From Sulfurimonas gotlandica GD1 (GTDB taxonomy: Bacteria > Campylobacterota > Campylobacteria > Campylobacterales > Sulfurimonadaceae), in the NCBI RefSeq assembly GCF_000242915.1, contig NZ_AFRZ01000001.1, positions 434,001 to 498,000 on the forward strand: a stretch of 64,000 nucleotides of DNA, read 5' to 3'. Below, in pieces: positions 13,102 through 22,583 of this stretch. Each line of letters starts with the position of its first letter. Within the stretch, counting starts at the first letter, position 1. Below the pieces are notes generated by a model that ran no database searches, was not told where the DNA came from, and saw nothing but the letters and a program-made list of their open reading frames with translations. The translations under genes were made by a program, and so were the position numbers.

Positions 13102-13747
13102 TCTCTTTTTTACCGTGAGCTTTTAAGTACTCATTTGATTTTGAGAATGGTTTTGAACCGAAAAAACCTCTGTATGAAGACAGAGGTGAAGGGTGTGGAG
13201 CCTTTAAAACAAGATGAGTAGATGCATCTATCAGGTTCTCTTTTTTCTGAGACGGTCCACCCCAAAGAATAAAAACAATATTTTCATATTCAGATGAGAG
13301 TTTTTTTATAACGAAATCACTAAATTTTTCCCAACCTCTGCCCTTATGAGAGTTTGCCTTTGCCTGCTCTACCGTTAAAACACTGTTTATAAGTAAAACA
13401 CCCTGCTCTGCCCAGGAAGTCAAGTTCCCAGATGCAGGTTTTTTGCAGCCCTCATCATCAACTAACTCTTTAAATATATTTATAAGTGAAGGCGGTATCT
13501 TACACTCGTCACAAACAGAAAAAGCCAGGCCATTTGCCTGTCTCTCTCCATGATATGGATCTTGACCAAGAATTACAACTTTCACTTGCTCTGGGGTAAC
13601 TAAGTTAAAAGCCCTAAAGATGTTTTCATATTCAGGAAAGATTGTTACTGCTTTGTACTCTGCTTCTACAAACTCTTGAAGTTTTATAAAATACTCTTTT
13701 TGCATTTCAGATGCAAAAAGAGCTGACCACTCATTGTTTAAAATCAT
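13082..13747 (-). CDS. ung: Uracil-DNA glycosylase
   Basis: It removes uracil from DNA as the first step of base excision repair. The 221-residue family 1 enzyme shows the water-activating motif GQDPYHG, the uracil-binding stretch LLINSVLTVE, and the HPSPLS minor-groove loop with catalytic histidine. Length is normal for bacterial Ung. It converges on, and slightly overlaps, the exported nuclease-like gene. It begins next to the long AT-rich region at 13.75-14.07 kb and so is divergent from the chemoreceptor gene. Confidence 0.95.
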   Translation of the reverse strand: MILNNEWSALFASEMQKEYFIKLQEFVEAEYKAVTIFPEYENIFRAFNLVTPEQVKVVILGQDPYHGERQANGLAFSVCDECKIPPSLINIFKELVDDEGCKKPASGNLTSWAEQGVLLINSVLTVEQAKANSHKGRGWEKFSDFVIKKLSSEYENIVFILWGGPSQKKENLIDASTHLVLKAPHPSPLSSYRGFFGSKPFSKSNEYLKAHGKKEINWCLA

Positions 13748-13911
13748 TATGACCCCCTACCTTTTACAGTATATCAAGCTTTTGAGATACTAATGTGATG
13801 TTTTTTTATATTATATTAACTTATCTTCTATATTTTTATAATAATAGCAATTTCTTATATTAAATTTATATAAAATATTATCTTTTAATAAAATATTAAT
13901 TTTACTTTAAT

Positions 13912-13917
13912 TATACT
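13912..13917 (+). promoter_or_regulatory. -10 box candidate in front of the riboswitch
   Basis: TATACT lies about 10 bases upstream of the predicted first paired base of the aptamer, so transcription would start near 13924. The rest of the 325-base gap (13748-13910) is extremely AT-rich and shows no gene or clear structure. Confidence 0.4.
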
Positions 13918-13920
13918 CTC

Positions 13921-14011
13921 TGTTATTGTATTTAGCCAAACTTATTGCGAAATAAGGACGGAAAGCTGTGAGTCTTAAATTTTGTGTAAAATTGAAGATT
14001 GTCTAGTTGCA
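13921..14011 (+). promoter_or_regulatory. Candidate c-di-GMP-I (GEMM-I) riboswitch upstream of the NIT chemoreceptor
   Basis: The core matches the GEMM-I aptamer by eye. CC (13936-13937), an AAA internal loop and CTTATT (13941-13946) lead to a GCGA tetraloop, then AATAAG, the conserved GAC (13957-13959), GG (13960-13961), AAA and GC. The flanking pair is CC/GG where the Vibrio Vc2 aptamer has GC/GC, a compensatory change. G13935 aligns with ligand-contacting G20 and A13962 with intercalating A47. A second hairpin (13973-13976 with 13995-13998, and AATTTT/AAAATT) fits the receptor arm. P1 (13921-13928 with 14004-14011) is weak and rich in GU pairs. A T8 run at 14031-14038 follows, but I see no strong terminator stem. 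Confidence 0.65.
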
Positions 14012-14072
14012 CTTCTTTCATCTGCGCTCCTTTTTTTTAATCAGAATATGGCTCTAAACTAAAGGATGTAAA

Positions 14073-16307
14073 ATGTTAAACAACATGACAATAAGAGGAA
14101 AACTAATTTTCCTGAGTATTGTAGTTCTCTCCGTAATCATAGCTTTTTCCGTAAGATCTTCTTATTCTACTTGGAATGATCACAAAAATATTAAAGATAC
14201 AGCTTCATTAATAGAACTATCTGTAAAGATGAGTGCCGTTTTACATGAACTACAAAAAGAACGGGGTGCGAGTGCCGGTTTTTTAGGTTCTAAAGGAACT
14301 AAGTTTGTAGATATACTTCCAAAGCAGCATAGCTCCACAGATGTTAAAATAAAAGAACTTAGAGCTTATATTAGTGAAAACGCTTCAAATTATACTAATA
14401 TAGTAACTAAAGAGATAGATTTAGACTCTGTACCTGCAATAAGAACAAAGGTAAAATCTCAAACTACTGAGGTTAAAGACGCAGTTAAATTCTATACATC
14501 TTTAAATAAAAAAATCATAGATACTATCTCTGAGTTTTCTACAGTTCCAGAAAATGCCGAGCTAAGAACAAACTTCAACAGTTTTGTAGTTTTTATCAGT
14601 TCAAAAGAGCGTGCCGGAATTGAGCGTGCAGTTTTATCTGGTGTATTTGCGAAAAATGCCTTTACAAGAGCTACAGCTGCAAAATTTGCTTCTCTTGTAT
14701 CTGAACAAAATGCATTTACAAACCTCTTTATGCATACAGCAAACAGTGCTATGCAAGAAGCATATAAAAAAACAAAATCAGATAGCTCATTTGCAGAGGT
14801 TGAGAAGTTTAGAGAAATTGCCTCTTCAAATGAGAACTCTTTTGGTGTAGATGCCACTGTATGGTTCCAAACAATAACTAAAAAAATCAACAAATTAAAA
14901 GAGTTTGAAGACACATTAGCCAAGCATACTTTGGATACGACCGCTTCAATGGTTTCTTCATCATTTATGCTACTTCTTTTTGTATCTATAACTTCAACAC
15001 TAGTTGTATTATTTGTTATGTACCTTACAAGAGATGTATCAAACGGTATATCAAACTCCATAAACAGAGTTAAAAAAATCATTGGGCAGATAACAACAGA
15101 AGGTGACTTGTCTATTGATGTAGACAGAAGAGAAATTGTTCGCAATGAAATGGATGAAATTACGCATCTGCTTGCTACACTAGTGGACCTCATTAGAGAT
15201 TTAACACAAAGAATAAATACATCTGTTCATAGAGCTTCACAAGGAGATTTTACTTTTGATCTTAATACTGATGGATTACATGGAGATTTTGCTGAAGCAA
15301 TTCGCAATGTAAAAGATGGAATTTGTGCAATGAAAGAAGCACATGAAAAACAAAAAACTATCAACTTTAACTCAAATGTCAGATCGGTTGGAAGTATAGG
15401 TGACGGACTTGGTCTTATTCAAGGTGAGATGTCAAATGTGATAAGTGAGCTCGGTGAAGTTCAAATCACAACAAAACATACAGCTCAAACTTCAAATGAC
15501 TCAATGAGTGCAGTAGAAAATATTTTACAAAAATTACAAATACTTATTGAGCAGATAAGCGATAGTAACACTTCTATCGAAGGTCTTAATGATAAAACAA
15601 ATGAGATTACTTCTGTTGTTGACCTTATTAAAGATATTGCTGAACAGACAAATCTGCTTGCTTTAAATGCAGCTATTGAAGCAGCAAGAGCCGGTGAGCA
15701 TGGACGAGGATTCGCTGTTGTTGCAGATGAAGTTCGTAAACTTGCAGAGAGAACTCAAAAAGCAACTAGTGAAATAACGATATCGATTAACTCTATGAAA
15801 CAAGAAGCTAGTGTTATCTTAGATAAATCAGAGACTATGACTTCTTTAGCAGATGAAGCTTCTACTTCAGTAGACAATTTTAACACTGTGATGAGTGAGT
15901 TAAATACAGAAGCAACTGGAATGGCTAAAATTATAAATGATATGGAAAACAAAGTATTTATAGTTTTAGCTAAAATTGACCATATTATATATAAAGCAAA
16001 TGCTTATGACGCTATTGTAGCGGCTGACAAAAGCAGATCATTTGGCTCACATACAGCGTGTAGACTAGGTAAATGGTATGAAGGCTCTGGTAAAGAGCGT
16101 TTTGGAGATACAGAAGCTTACAGGTTAGCTCTCTCGCCACATAAAACAGTTCACGATAGTGTTCATAACTGTATTGTTTATTTTGAGAATGAAGACAAAA
16201 GAATAGAAAATGAAGGGCATATTGTACAAAACTTAAAAACGATGGAAGAAAATAGTGACAAACTATTTGTTCTTTTAAATGAGATGCTTGTTCAGTATCA
16301 TAACTAA
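14073..16307 (+). CDS. Methyl-accepting chemotaxis protein with NIT sensor and C-terminal CZB domain
   Basis: This 744-residue chemoreceptor runs: membrane helix (about 10-27); periplasmic NIT (nitrate/nitrite-sensing) domain with its [18 protein letters not shown] motif (58-75); second helix near 295-320; HAMP; signalling domain with hairpin [20 protein letters not shown]; and a C-terminal CZB zinc-binding domain with CRLGKWYEG and the PHKTVH histidines. It likely biases swimming toward or away from nitrate/nitrite, with zinc or redox input at the CheA-facing end. It lies behind a candidate c-di-GMP riboswitch, so second messenger level may set receptor amount. RBS AAAGGA precedes the ATG. 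A perfect palindrome terminates it. Confidence 0.92.
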
Positions 16308-17112: not shown

Positions 17113-18060
17113 GTGAATATAATAATGAAATCAACAAAATATCTTGCTATTGATAAAAACATTATTACCAAAGGTATTAGTTTAGATTTTAGTATATTCA
17201 CACTCTCTTCAGATAAACAGATGAACTGTTTTAAAGAGAATGGTGTCTGCTTCACAAGTAACGATAAAGTTATTATTGATTCTATAAATGTTTTATATGT
17301 AGAAGAGCAACAACATGAAGAGTATAAAAAGTTTTACCAGACTTTTTTAAATACTCAAGATGAGCTAAAAAACATTAAACTGGATAATAAGCCATCTGTT
17401 ATATATGAACACGCTTCAAACGTTCTTAACGACCTTTTTAGTAATCCTGAAACACTAAGTAATTATGACTCCTCAAAGGAAGTTGTAAATGAGATGATAG
17501 AGACTATTTTAAGTGATAATTTTACTATCAAATCTCTAATGGATATTGCGACACATGATTACTACACACATACTCACTCCATAAACGTCTCCATTTACGC
17601 ACTAAGCTTAGGCTCATATATGGGGATGCAACCTGAGACACTATCAGAACTTGGAGAATCAGCTCTCTTACATGATTTGGGTAAAAGTAAAATAGACTCT
17701 GCGATAATAACTAAAAATGGGGCACTTACAGACAGAGAGTTTCATGAGATTAAAAAACACCCTGAATTAGGTTATAGATTAGGACTAAAATTAGGTATTA
17801 AAAACAATAATGTACTAGACGGTATAAGACATCACCATGAAAAAATGGATGGCACTGGCTACCCATCTAAACTCAAAGGTACACAAATACCACTATTTGC
17901 ACGTATTATTGGCGTCTGTGATATCTTTGACGCACTAACAAGCAGAAGAACCTACAAAGAAGCTATGACAACATTTGACGCTATAAAACTTATGAAGTTA
18001 AAAATGAATAATCATGTTGATGTTAAACTTCTAGATAAGATGATAAGGATGTTTCAGTAA
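17113..18060 (+). CDS. HD-GYP domain protein (probable c-di-GMP phosphodiesterase)
   Basis: The 315-residue protein has an unrecognised N-terminal region (about 1-120) and a C-terminal HD-GYP domain: HTHSINVS, the HD pair in LLHDLGKSK, KKHPELGYRL, HHEKMDGTGYP and the end motif DIFDALTSRRTYK. HD-GYP enzymes hydrolyse c-di-GMP to pGpG or GMP. No membrane helix is seen. The start is uncertain: GTG at 17113 or ATG at 17125, neither with a clear ribosome-binding site. It is followed by a terminator and converges with another HD-GYP gene, in a region crowded with c-di-GMP genes. Confidence 0.88.
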   Translation: MNIIMKSTKYLAIDKNIITKGISLDFSIFTLSSDKQMNCFKENGVCFTSNDKVIIDSINVLYVEEQQHEEYKKFYQTFLNTQDELKNIKLDNKPSVIYEHASNVLNDLFSNPETLSNYDSSKEVVNEMIETILSDNFTIKSLMDIATHDYYTHTHSINVSIYALSLGSYMGMQPETLSELGESALLHDLGKSKIDSAIITKNGALTDREFHEIKKHPELGYRLGLKLGIKNNNVLDGIRHHHEKMDGTGYPSKLKGTQIPLFARIIGVCDIFDALTSRRTYKEAMTTFDAIKLMKLKMNNHVDVKLLDKMIRMFQ

Positions 18061-18069
18061 CATCCTTTT
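18045..18069 (+). terminator. Intrinsic terminator overlapping the HD-GYP stop codon
   Basis: AAGGATGTT (18045-18053), loop TCAGT and AACATCCTT (18059-18067) run into a TTTT tract. The stop codon TAA (18058-18060) spans the loop and the start of the second arm. On the minus strand it could also slow read-through from the convergent gene. Confidence 0.65.
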
Positions 18070-20449
18070 AATCTCTAAGCTTATCCCTTATCTCTAAAAA
18101 GTCATCTAAATTCTCAAAAAACAGATCTACCAACTTCGGATCAAAATGAGTTCCTTTTCCATTTCTAAATAGTTCAAAAATCTCTTCATCACTCCAAGCT
18201 TTTTTGTATGCTCTATCACTACCCAAGGCGTCAAAGACATCCGCGACAGCTGTAATACGGCCGTATATATGAATATTCTCACCTTTAAGACCATTAGGAT
18301 ATCCACTGCCGTCATACTTTTCATGATGCTCATAGGCTACGGTTGCGGCAGCTTTTAATATATCTCTATTTGAGCCTTTTAATACATTGTAGCCTATCTC
18401 ACTATGAGTTCGCATGATCTCCCACTCATCAGCATCTAGCTTACCAGGCTTTTTCAAAACATTATCAGGAATCCCAACTTTACCTATATCGTGCATTGGT
18501 GAGGCGTCATAAAGCAGTTCTGACTCTTCTTTAGGCAGTCCATATTTACAAGCTAATAGTTTAGAGTACTCTGCGACGCGTTTTACATGGTTTCCTGTCT
18601 CTTTGGAACGTGATTCACCTATCTCACCCATCTTGTATATAACTTCACGTTGTGTCTCTTCTATCTCTTTGTGGACATTAATAACATCACTAATATCATA
18701 TTGAATACTCATGTACTCAACAATATCACCATTTAAGTCTAAAATCGGAACTATCAGTGTGTCAAGATATATTGTTCTTCCATCTTTTGCCACATTACTA
18801 ATAACACCATTAAAATTCTTTTTAGATTTTACAGTGTCCCACAAGTTTTTATAAAACTCATCTGTAACACTTTTATCTCTAAGAAGAGGAGTGTGTCTTT
18901 TACCTAGTAGTTCTTCTTTTTTAAAACCTGTGATTTTTTCATGTGTTTCATTTATATATGTAATTACACCATTTTCATCTGTTCTTGTAAAAGAAGCTGC
19001 GCTCTCTATTGCTTTTTCATACTGAGCAAGTAAATTCATCTTATCTTGTAAGCTTTGATTTGAAGTGCTTAACTCTTTAGTTAAAAGTTCTTTTAGCTCT
19101 TCTAATTCTGTAATGTCATGTCTGATAGCTATATATTCTACTATGACATTTTTATCATTTTTAATAGGAAATATATTTACATCTACAATATAATAACCCC
19201 CATCTTTTTTTCGATTTTTTATTTTTCCATGCCATATTTGCCCTATTTGGATAGTAGTCCACATCTCTTTAAAGACTTCAGGTGGAGTATCACTATGTCT
19301 AACTATGGAATGAGGCTTACCTAAAAGATCTTCTTTAGAGTATCCTGAGAGTTTTACAAAAGCATCATTGACATAGGTTATTTTTCCTCTTAAATCAGTT
19401 TTAGATACCAATGTTGTCTTATCAATGGCATTTTGTAATTGTTCGATTGTATTTGTCTTTTGTCTACTTTGTCTGTAAAAATAAAATATAATCATCAGAG
19501 CAAATAGAGCTATAAGATATTTAATAAGCTCCACAATTAACATATTATATATTGCATTGTCATCTCTACTTGATATCACGTATCCAGCTGTATTTCCTGC
19601 CACATCTTCAATAGGGACAAAAATAAATATTTTATTTTTTCCTAAATTAAAGCTATCTTGCGCAAAAGCTTTATTCTTTCCTATATTATCAGTTATATAG
19701 CCCATAATACTTTTCATTGAACCTGTTGAGATGATATTGTTTGCATGTATATTGTTTGACATATAGTATTTGTCACTAGCACAAAACTCATGATAGTATT
19801 TTTTCAAATGATCTTTAACAACTCTTGATTCCATAATACTTTTTTTTATAATTATAGAATAATCAGCATCTAAAGACTCTTTCATCTGCTCTATTACAGA
19901 TAATACACTAATAGACAACTCTACACTGCCAACGTACTCTTCATTATGAAAAATTGGATAAACATATCTAAAACCATCAAAATATTTTCCAACTTCAAAG
20001 CCATATACAGGCTGTTTAGTTTCTATGACTTTTTTGATGCTCTCTCTAAATAAAAGAGTGTCGCCAAATTTACCTTGTTTGTGAAATCTAAAAAAGCTCT
20101 CTCCATCTGCTAAATGAAAGTGCAGTTGAAGAATACCTGACTTCTCCATTCTTTTATATCTTTCATTTAATAAAATATATAGTTTTTCTCTATTGCTGTC
20201 TCTATTTAAACCGGCATTAGACTCATTTATAATACTAGCTATCTCATGATTTTCTAAAAGCTCATGAAATAGTGTCTCAACAACTCTTTTATTTGAAATC
20301 ACTTTTTCACTGTATTGCAACTGCAAGTCATAGATTTTTTCTGCTAAATATAGATTTTTCTTGTATGTAAACTCAAAATACAAGATCAATCCAATACTTA
20401 AAATAGTTAGTATCAGAATGATTCTTTCTTTATTTATTATTTTTCCCAA
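18068..20449 (-). CDS. Membrane sensor HD-GYP phosphodiesterase: dCache-PAS-PAS-HD-GYP
   Basis: The 793-residue product has a membrane helix (11-28), a periplasmic double-Cache-type sensor (about 30-305; LHFHLADGESFFRFHKQG and YVYPIFHNEEYVGSVE resemble dCache_3), a second helix (308-326), two PAS domains (about 345-455 and 475-590) and an HD-GYP domain (600-793; SPMHDIGKVG, HHEKYDGSGYP, DVFDALGSDRAYK). It should lower c-di-GMP in response to an extracellular signal. The only in-frame start near the N-terminus is TTG at 20449, and eight bases upstream of it, in the Shine-Dalgarno position, is a run of nine Gs. Such G-tracts mediate phase variation in this phylum. Confidence 0.88.
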   Translation of the reverse strand: MGKIINKERIILILTILSIGLILYFEFTYKKNLYLAEKIYDLQLQYSEKVISNKRVVETLFHELLENHEIASIINESNAGLNRDSNREKLYILLNERYKRMEKSGILQLHFHLADGESFFRFHKQGKFGDTLLFRESIKKVIETKQPVYGFEVGKYFDGFRYVYPIFHNEEYVGSVELSISVLSVIEQMKESLDADYSIIIKKSIMESRVVKDHLKKYYHEFCASDKYYMSNNIHANNIISTGSMKSIMGYITDNIGKNKAFAQDSFNLGKNKIFIFVPIEDVAGNTAGYVISSRDDNAIYNMLIVELIKYLIALFALMIIFYFYRQSRQKTNTIEQLQNAIDKTTLVSKTDLRGKITYVNDAFVKLSGYSKEDLLGKPHSIVRHSDTPPEVFKEMWTTIQIGQIWHGKIKNRKKDGGYYIVDVNIFPIKNDKNVIVEYIAIRHDITELEELKELLTKELSTSNQSLQDKMNLLAQYEKAIESAASFTRTDENGVITYINETHEKITGFKKEELLGKRHTPLLRDKSVTDEFYKNLWDTVKSKKNFNGVISNVAKDGRTIYLDTLIVPILDLNGDIVEYMSIQYDISDVINVHKEIEETQREVIYKMGEIGESRSKETGNHVKRVAEYSKLLACKYGLPKEESELLYDASPMHDIGKVGIPDNVLKKPGKLDADEWEIMRTHSEIGYNVLKGSNRDILKAAATVAYEHHEKYDGSGYPNGLKGENIHIYGRITAVADVFDALGSDRAYKKAWSDEEIFELFRNGKGTHFDPKLVDLFFENLDDFLEIRDKLRD

Positions 20450-21299: not shown

Positions 21300-22583
21300 A
21301 TGCAAATAATCAAACAATACTCTCAAGAAATCCAAGAATGTGTACAAGACTTTAATATAAGTCTTCAAAGTCTACAAGGCGATCATACAAAAGACCTTCT
21401 CTATACACACGCATTAATCGAATATAAAAAACTATTTCTGAACTTGCTTTTATCTATTTCAGATGAAGAGATAGAACACAACACAAAAGTTCTTGTCAAC
21501 TTCACTATAGAACATGAGATATCATACCTATTTTTATATAGTGAACTTATAACTGTTGTTCGCAAGCTTCTTGGAATACTTTTGGAAAAAAATGACTTAG
21601 AGCACATACATGAGATTAACAACTTTTTTACAGAACATGAGAATAGAATCACATCTTTGTATTTACATAGGTTTCTTAAAAAACTAAAGCTAAAGAGTGA
21701 ACTTCGTCTTTCTCATATATCCATAATGCAGGATAAGAAGTTTATGGTGCACTATGAGAGTCATATCAAATGGATTCTAAATCTTATTCTCTACATAGAA
21801 CGAAGTGTCTATGATAACGACTATCCTGAACTAAATCCCAACCTGTGTGAGTTTGGAAAATGGATGCACAGTGCTACTACTTCTTACCTTATATCTACCA
21901 CTCACTTTAAAGTCATAGAAAAACTTCATATGAATCTTCATGACTTGGCGGCTAATGTCGTAAACCACTGTCAAAATAACAATGATCCACGTCCATCAAC
22001 ACTAATACATCTTATGCAGCGTATAGATTATTATTCGCTTGAGATAGGAAATGAAATAGCATTTCTAAATGAGATAGAAGAGAGTGCAAAAGATCCGCTT
22101 ACGCATCTTCTAACAAGAAGACTGTTTAATAAGATCATGCTAAATAAGCTAGATATTGCAAAGGCGACTGGTAGAGAATTTGCTCTTATGATGTGCGACC
22201 TAGATCACTTTAAAAGAGTAAATGACAGCTATGGTCATGCAGTTGGAGATGTTGTACTAAAACACTTCTCAAGCATTTTAGAAGAGATACTTCGCAAATC
22301 AGATTATATATTTAGATTTGGTGGTGAAGAGTTTATGGTTTTACTGCCTATGACTGACAAAAAAGAAGCTCTAATACTAGCTCAAAAAGTTTGTGATGCA
22401 ATAGTCGCTTCTGAAGTAATAGTGGAAGATATAACTATAAAATATACGGTAAGTATTGGGACTATATCAATTATTATTGACAACAGTGTAGTAATAGGAC
22501 AAGAAGCAATAGATAAGTACATTACACAAGTTGATGAAAGACTGTATCTTGCAAAAGAGCGAGGAAGAAATCGCGTAGAATAG
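21300..22583 (+). CDS. CZB-GGDEF diguanylate cyclase with DgcZ-like domains
   Basis: The 427-residue cytoplasmic protein makes c-di-GMP. Residues 150-225 form a CZB zinc-binding domain: H155, C183 in LCEFGKWM, H210 and H214 in LHMNLHDLA, the same ligand pattern as Escherichia coli DgcZ, where zinc inhibits activity. Residues 262-427 form the GGDEF domain with GGEEF (341-345) and an inhibitory RxxD site (R332, D335) five residues before it, so product inhibition is expected. The N-terminal 140 residues are helical and unassigned. The CZB domain matches the one on the NIT chemoreceptor 5 kb upstream. RBS GGAG is present. Confidence 0.9.
   Translation: MQIIKQYSQEIQECVQDFNISLQSLQGDHTKDLLYTHALIEYKKLFLNLLLSISDEEIEHNTKVLVNFTIEHEISYLFLYSELITVVRKLLGILLEKNDLEHIHEINNFFTEHENRITSLYLHRFLKKLKLKSELRLSHISIMQDKKFMVHYESHIKWILNLILYIERSVYDNDYPELNPNLCEFGKWMHSATTSYLISTTHFKVIEKLHMNLHDLAANVVNHCQNNNDPRPSTLIHLMQRIDYYSLEIGNEIAFLNEIEESAKDPLTHLLTRRLFNKIMLNKLDIAKATGREFALMMCDLDHFKRVNDSYGHAVGDVVLKHFSSILEEILRKSDYIFRFGGEEFMVLLPMTDKKEALILAQKVCDAIVASEVIVEDITIKYTVSIGTISIIIDNSVVIGQEAIDKYITQVDERLYLAKERGRNRVE

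Follow-up and report, generated by a model that had tools for sequence, protein, structure and literature searches.

The 5′ leader of a chemoreceptor gene in Sulfurimonas gotlandica GD1 is, judging from its sequence, almost certainly a c-di-GMP-I riboswitch with this receptor, a NIT-MCP-CZB protein, as its target, and its aptamer very probably binds c-di-GMP. It is the sole riboswitch that Rfam detected in the window (the whole 64-kb stretch of DNA that was analysed), and the 2.95-Mb genome has just one match to the c-di-GMP-I model, RF01051, above the cut-off, the runner-up reaching 22 bits. The arrangement as such, in which a chemoreceptor gene carries a c-di-GMP-I riboswitch, is already known from Bacillus thuringiensis, where Bc1 precedes mcpE (PMC11218506); this precedent also bears out the initial annotation, which had named chemoreceptor genes as GEMM targets in other phyla. 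What is new is the type-2, likely translational form of the switch on a NIT receptor in Campylobacterota. The open-access papers that were searched yielded no c-di-GMP riboswitch for Sulfurimonas or the epsilonproteobacteria, a weak negative given that automatic annotation may already list the element. If the assignment is true, one electron-acceptor receptor of a Sulfurimonas would be tied to the messenger that governs the choice between motile and sessile life.

The aptamer and its ligand contacts

A GEMM-I element had been proposed for positions 13912-14072, and a scan with RF01051 both upheld this class and narrowed the element to the aptamer listed in Table 1, at 54.0 bits (E 9.1e-8) against a gathering score of 35 bits. 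The alignment spans model positions 1-87 of 87 and is thus full length. The 3′ end of the aptamer lies 58 nt ahead of the ATG of the receptor gene.

Table 1. Features of the riboswitch, the receptor gene and neighbouring genes, in window coordinates
Feature	Position	Strand	Basis
Putative -10 box TATACT	13912..13917	+	Read from sequence; position kept in L034
c-di-GMP-I (GEMM-I) aptamer, type-2 form	13925..14014	+	RF01051; kept in four orthologous leaders
G20 equivalent: ligand contact, c-di-GMP vs cGAMP position	13935	+	RF01051 model position 11
P2 stem-loop CUUAUU-GCGA-AAUAAG	13941..13956	+	RF01051 alignment
A47 equivalent	13962	+	RF01051 alignment; PMC9049102
C92 equivalent, ligand contact	14010	+	Alignment; C here in nearly all phylum matches
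UCCUUU, candidate anti-Shine-Dalgarno; extended stem from 14023	14028..14033	+	Pairs AAAGGA in fold
AAAGGA Shine-Dalgarno sequence	14061..14066	+	Read from sequence
NIT-MCPsignal-CZB membrane chemoreceptor, 744 aa, regulated gene	14073..16307	+	Pfam, NasR match
HD-GYP protein with HHExxDGxGYP	17113-18060		Domain and motif reading
HD-GYP protein (dCache-PAS-PAS-HD-GYP), HHExxDGxGYP	18068-20449		Domain and motif reading
CZB-GGDEF cyclase with GGEEF and RxxD I-site	21300-22583		Domain and motif reading

The contacts G20, A47 and C92, located through the RF01051 alignment in the Vc2 numbering of PMC4744006, are all present, as had been reported for the first two, and the inter-helix pair C44/G83 is found at 13959 and 14001. 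A47 is the residue that stacks between the ligand guanines (PMC9049102). The hairpin with a GCGA loop picked out earlier is P2, whose loop is of the GNRA type. The compensatory CC/GG pair claimed for the core is also real, with C13936-G13961 and C13937-G13960 occupying the places of G21-C46 and C22-G45 in the Rfam consensus, yet this swap is the clade norm of the type-2 form and no peculiarity of the site: C21-G46 occurs in 118 of 129 phylum aptamers. By a simple pattern search, the aptamer has no canonical 11-nt tetraloop receptor in P3 and is therefore filed under type 2 (GYRA loop) rather than type 1; a closing P1 helix is likewise not evident in it. Compared with Vc2 and Vc1 of Vibrio cholerae, the aptamer shares the core, the contact positions and C44-G83, but differs in carrying C21-G46 instead of G21-C46, in lacking both the 11-nt tetraloop receptor and an evident P1, and in its target (PMC4744006).

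Orthologous leaders and a natural deletion

The same aptamer lies 50-61 nt ahead of the ATG of orthologous receptor genes in four other Sulfurimonadaceae (L125/L034, L141/L035, L145/L037 and L115/G129), and its resemblance to RF01051 is therefore not ascribed to chance. The L125/L034 receptor shows 82% identity over the NIT part. In all five orthologous leaders the element keeps its 5′ position before a gene of the environment, membrane or motility kind, with the 5′ half of the aptamer almost invariant and the flanks differing. It is absent ahead of several close receptor orthologs (L036/L043, L046, L038 and L047), and it also occurs, at 41 bits, ahead of a different receptor in G403 (L169), which by its sequence alone has two NIT stretches.

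Ahead of the G509 receptor, which is 75% identical over the NIT part, the promoter region is kept, as is the first stem (P2), but the remaining aptamer and the platform are gone. The deleted stretch lies between AAGGAY repeats; what is left reads AAGGACACAAAATG, with the aptamer's AAGGAC now standing where the ribosome-binding site should be. In the receptor tree, G509 is joined with the GEMM-bearing L035 at a support of 100/99, and the absence in G509 is therefore a secondary loss. A single gain is not demonstrable on the same tree, where the GEMM-bearing receptors fall into three pairs, each supported, inside a group whose branching is not resolved. Through its natural deletion, G509 allows receptor control in the presence of the switch to be compared with control in its absence.

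Expression platform and direction of control

Transcription is expected to start at about 13923-13926, downstream of a putative -10 box that the promoter consensus scan did not list (13912-13917) and that has a counterpart, TACAAT, at the same place in L035. The 58 nt from 14015 to 14072 constitute the expression platform. The AAAGG of the Shine-Dalgarno sequence is invariant in all five leaders, each of which has a pyrimidine tract able to pair with it, although the position of the tract shifts from leader to leader. Pairing is kept despite changes in the letters, being AAAGGA/UCCUUU in the window, AAAGGGG/CCCCUUU in L115 and AAAGGAAA/UUUCCUUU in L145. A shuffle test of this pairing gave 98/1000 for the window alone and 16/1000 for L115, the only leader significant by itself because the tracts are pyrimidine-rich; pooled over the five leaders, which are related and not independent, p was 0.014. 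Whole-leader stability was tried as a signal and discarded, the leader not being unusually stable (z 0.65).

In folds that took in 15 nt of the coding sequence, Shine-Dalgarno accessibility dropped in all five leaders once the aptamer was enforced, from 0.11-0.13 to 0.00-0.01 in the window and negligibly in L115. With the coding part extended to 40 nt, the effect was reversed in L145 (about 0.00 to 0.6-0.7 with the aptamer enforced) and all but absent in L125. Because the outcome depends on the coding length included, folding was not relied on for the ON or OFF sense.

Control is probably translational, and we lean narrowly towards c-di-GMP turning the receptor off, partly because low c-di-GMP usually accompanies motility. 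Bound c-di-GMP would lock the aptamer core, the pyrimidine tract would pair with AAAGGA, and receptor synthesis would fall. The tract can alternatively pair with the aptamer core, GGAAAG, and at low c-di-GMP it may be held there and the receptor gene translated, such that the receptor would be made mainly when the cell is motile. The full chain, from riboswitch through translational OFF control to a receptor of the motile state, is put forward tentatively, as something short of probable.

It is also conceivable, if rather unlikely, that the same riboswitch is an ON switch, in which the free GGAAAG core pairs with the tract, the resulting stem before a U-run stops transcription, and the ligand prevents this. 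Such a course is suggested by the free fold of L125/L034, where GGAAAG/CUUUCC stands directly ahead of nine U, by the reversal in L145 and by Bc1 itself, which is an ON switch that turns on reporter genes (PMC11218506). The core/tract stem, however, abuts a U-run clearly in L125 only; it does not do so in the window and is weak in L141, and no intrinsic terminator was called within 13700-14200. Bc1 and the element described here both supply a chemoreceptor gene with a c-di-GMP-I aptamer in its 5′ UTR, and both have the G20/A47/C92 equivalents. Bc1 combines a GAAA loop with a receptor for it, and its platform, up to 220 bp long, contains two terminators (PMC11218506); in the present element the loop is GYRA, a canonical receptor is absent, and the platform spans 58 nt in which no terminator was called. 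The present element also belongs to another phylum and serves a receptor of the NIT type.

Taken to its furthest extent, the translational OFF reading would have the switch dose one nitrate-type receptor as the sole above-threshold c-di-GMP-I reader among more than 100 cyclase-type domains, with the aptamer core mimicking a Shine-Dalgarno sequence and competing for the anti-Shine-Dalgarno tract, such that one recombination event of the kind seen in G509 could convert the switch into a constitutive ribosome-binding site. This extended picture is speculative and doubtful as a whole.

Ligand specificity

A preference for another cyclic dinucleotide, such as 3′,3′-cGAMP, is very improbable. Geobacter does possess GEMM-I variants that bind cGAMP (PMC8835794). 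Here, the aptamer in the window and those of the other four orthologs with the riboswitch all have G at position 20, and the genome holds 113 GGDEF and 47 EAL matches, both of which argue against such a preference. The cGAMP class (GEMM-Ib) is reportedly marked by A20, a distinction attributed to Kellenberger in 2015, and the G at 13935 departs from it. Least credible of all is a chance or decayed, functionless resemblance, for although 54 bits is rather low among RF01051 scores across the phylum and G509 has lost the element, the E-value, the intact contacts and a nearly constant 5′ half beside differing flanks speak against it.

The receptor and its neighbours

The regulated gene product had been described as a NIT-HAMP-MCP-CZB receptor, and Pfam supports three of these domains (NIT, 1.3e-52 and 180 bits; MCPsignal, 1.1e-34 and 120 bits; CZB, 1.7e-12 and 48 bits) without calling a HAMP domain in the 14073-16307 product. 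With both NIT and MCP signalling domains, the protein is a NIT-domain chemoreceptor. Its NIT part matches NasR (PDB 4akk) with an E-value of 2.3e-6, and in our reading of that alignment, for which the chain offset was inferred, receptor E184/R185 fall on NasR E175/R176, the predicted nitrate-pocket residues (PMC7496416). All 23 homologs compared keep the arginine, R185. NasR itself binds RNA as an antiterminator and carries an ANTAR domain, whereas here the NIT domain is the sensor of a membrane chemoreceptor that has a CZB domain. From its NIT family membership and homology to NasR, the receptor is predicted to be of the nitrate type. Most of its named relatives are Sulfurimonas records.

The c-di-GMP enzymes said to flank the receptor gene proved to be as described, comprising the cyclase and the two HD-GYP proteins of Table 1. 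Within this one species, 5 kb separate the CZB chemoreceptor from the CZB-GGDEF cyclase; according to a 2021 survey, a species usually has just one of the two, though the survey lists S. gotlandica as having the cyclase form (PMC8262984). By eye, the 18068-20449 protein resembles at its N-terminus the protein encoded downstream of a GEMM aptamer at L105; L025 and L085 cluster with L105. Genome-wide, the GGDEF and EAL matches are accompanied by 27 MCP matches and contrast with the single above-threshold c-di-GMP-I riboswitch.

c-di-GMP-I aptamers across the phylum

RF01051 was found in 43 of 397 sampled phylum genomes and in 73 of 228 family genomes. Four loci (L073, L074, L077 and L089) were excluded, as their matches lay near contig ends and the coordinates missed the aptamer. 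Among the 129 phylum aptamers, G20 is present in 126 and a GUGA or GCGA loop in 117, and by simple pattern a canonical-looking tetraloop receptor occurs in four. Chemoreceptors account for six of the 115 matches that have a downstream frame, and many of the other frames appear to encode secreted proteins, lipoproteins among them. In three Sulfurimonas aptamers (L148, L149 and L151) position 20 is A, which marks the cGAMP type of GEMM; two of them, L148 and L151, are followed about 360-425 nt downstream by the start of an rpsB-like frame. Finally, L097 (G413) has tandem GEMM matches, in pairs at G413:C1:1936859/1937022 and 1939380/1939533, that precede related lipoprotein-like genes.
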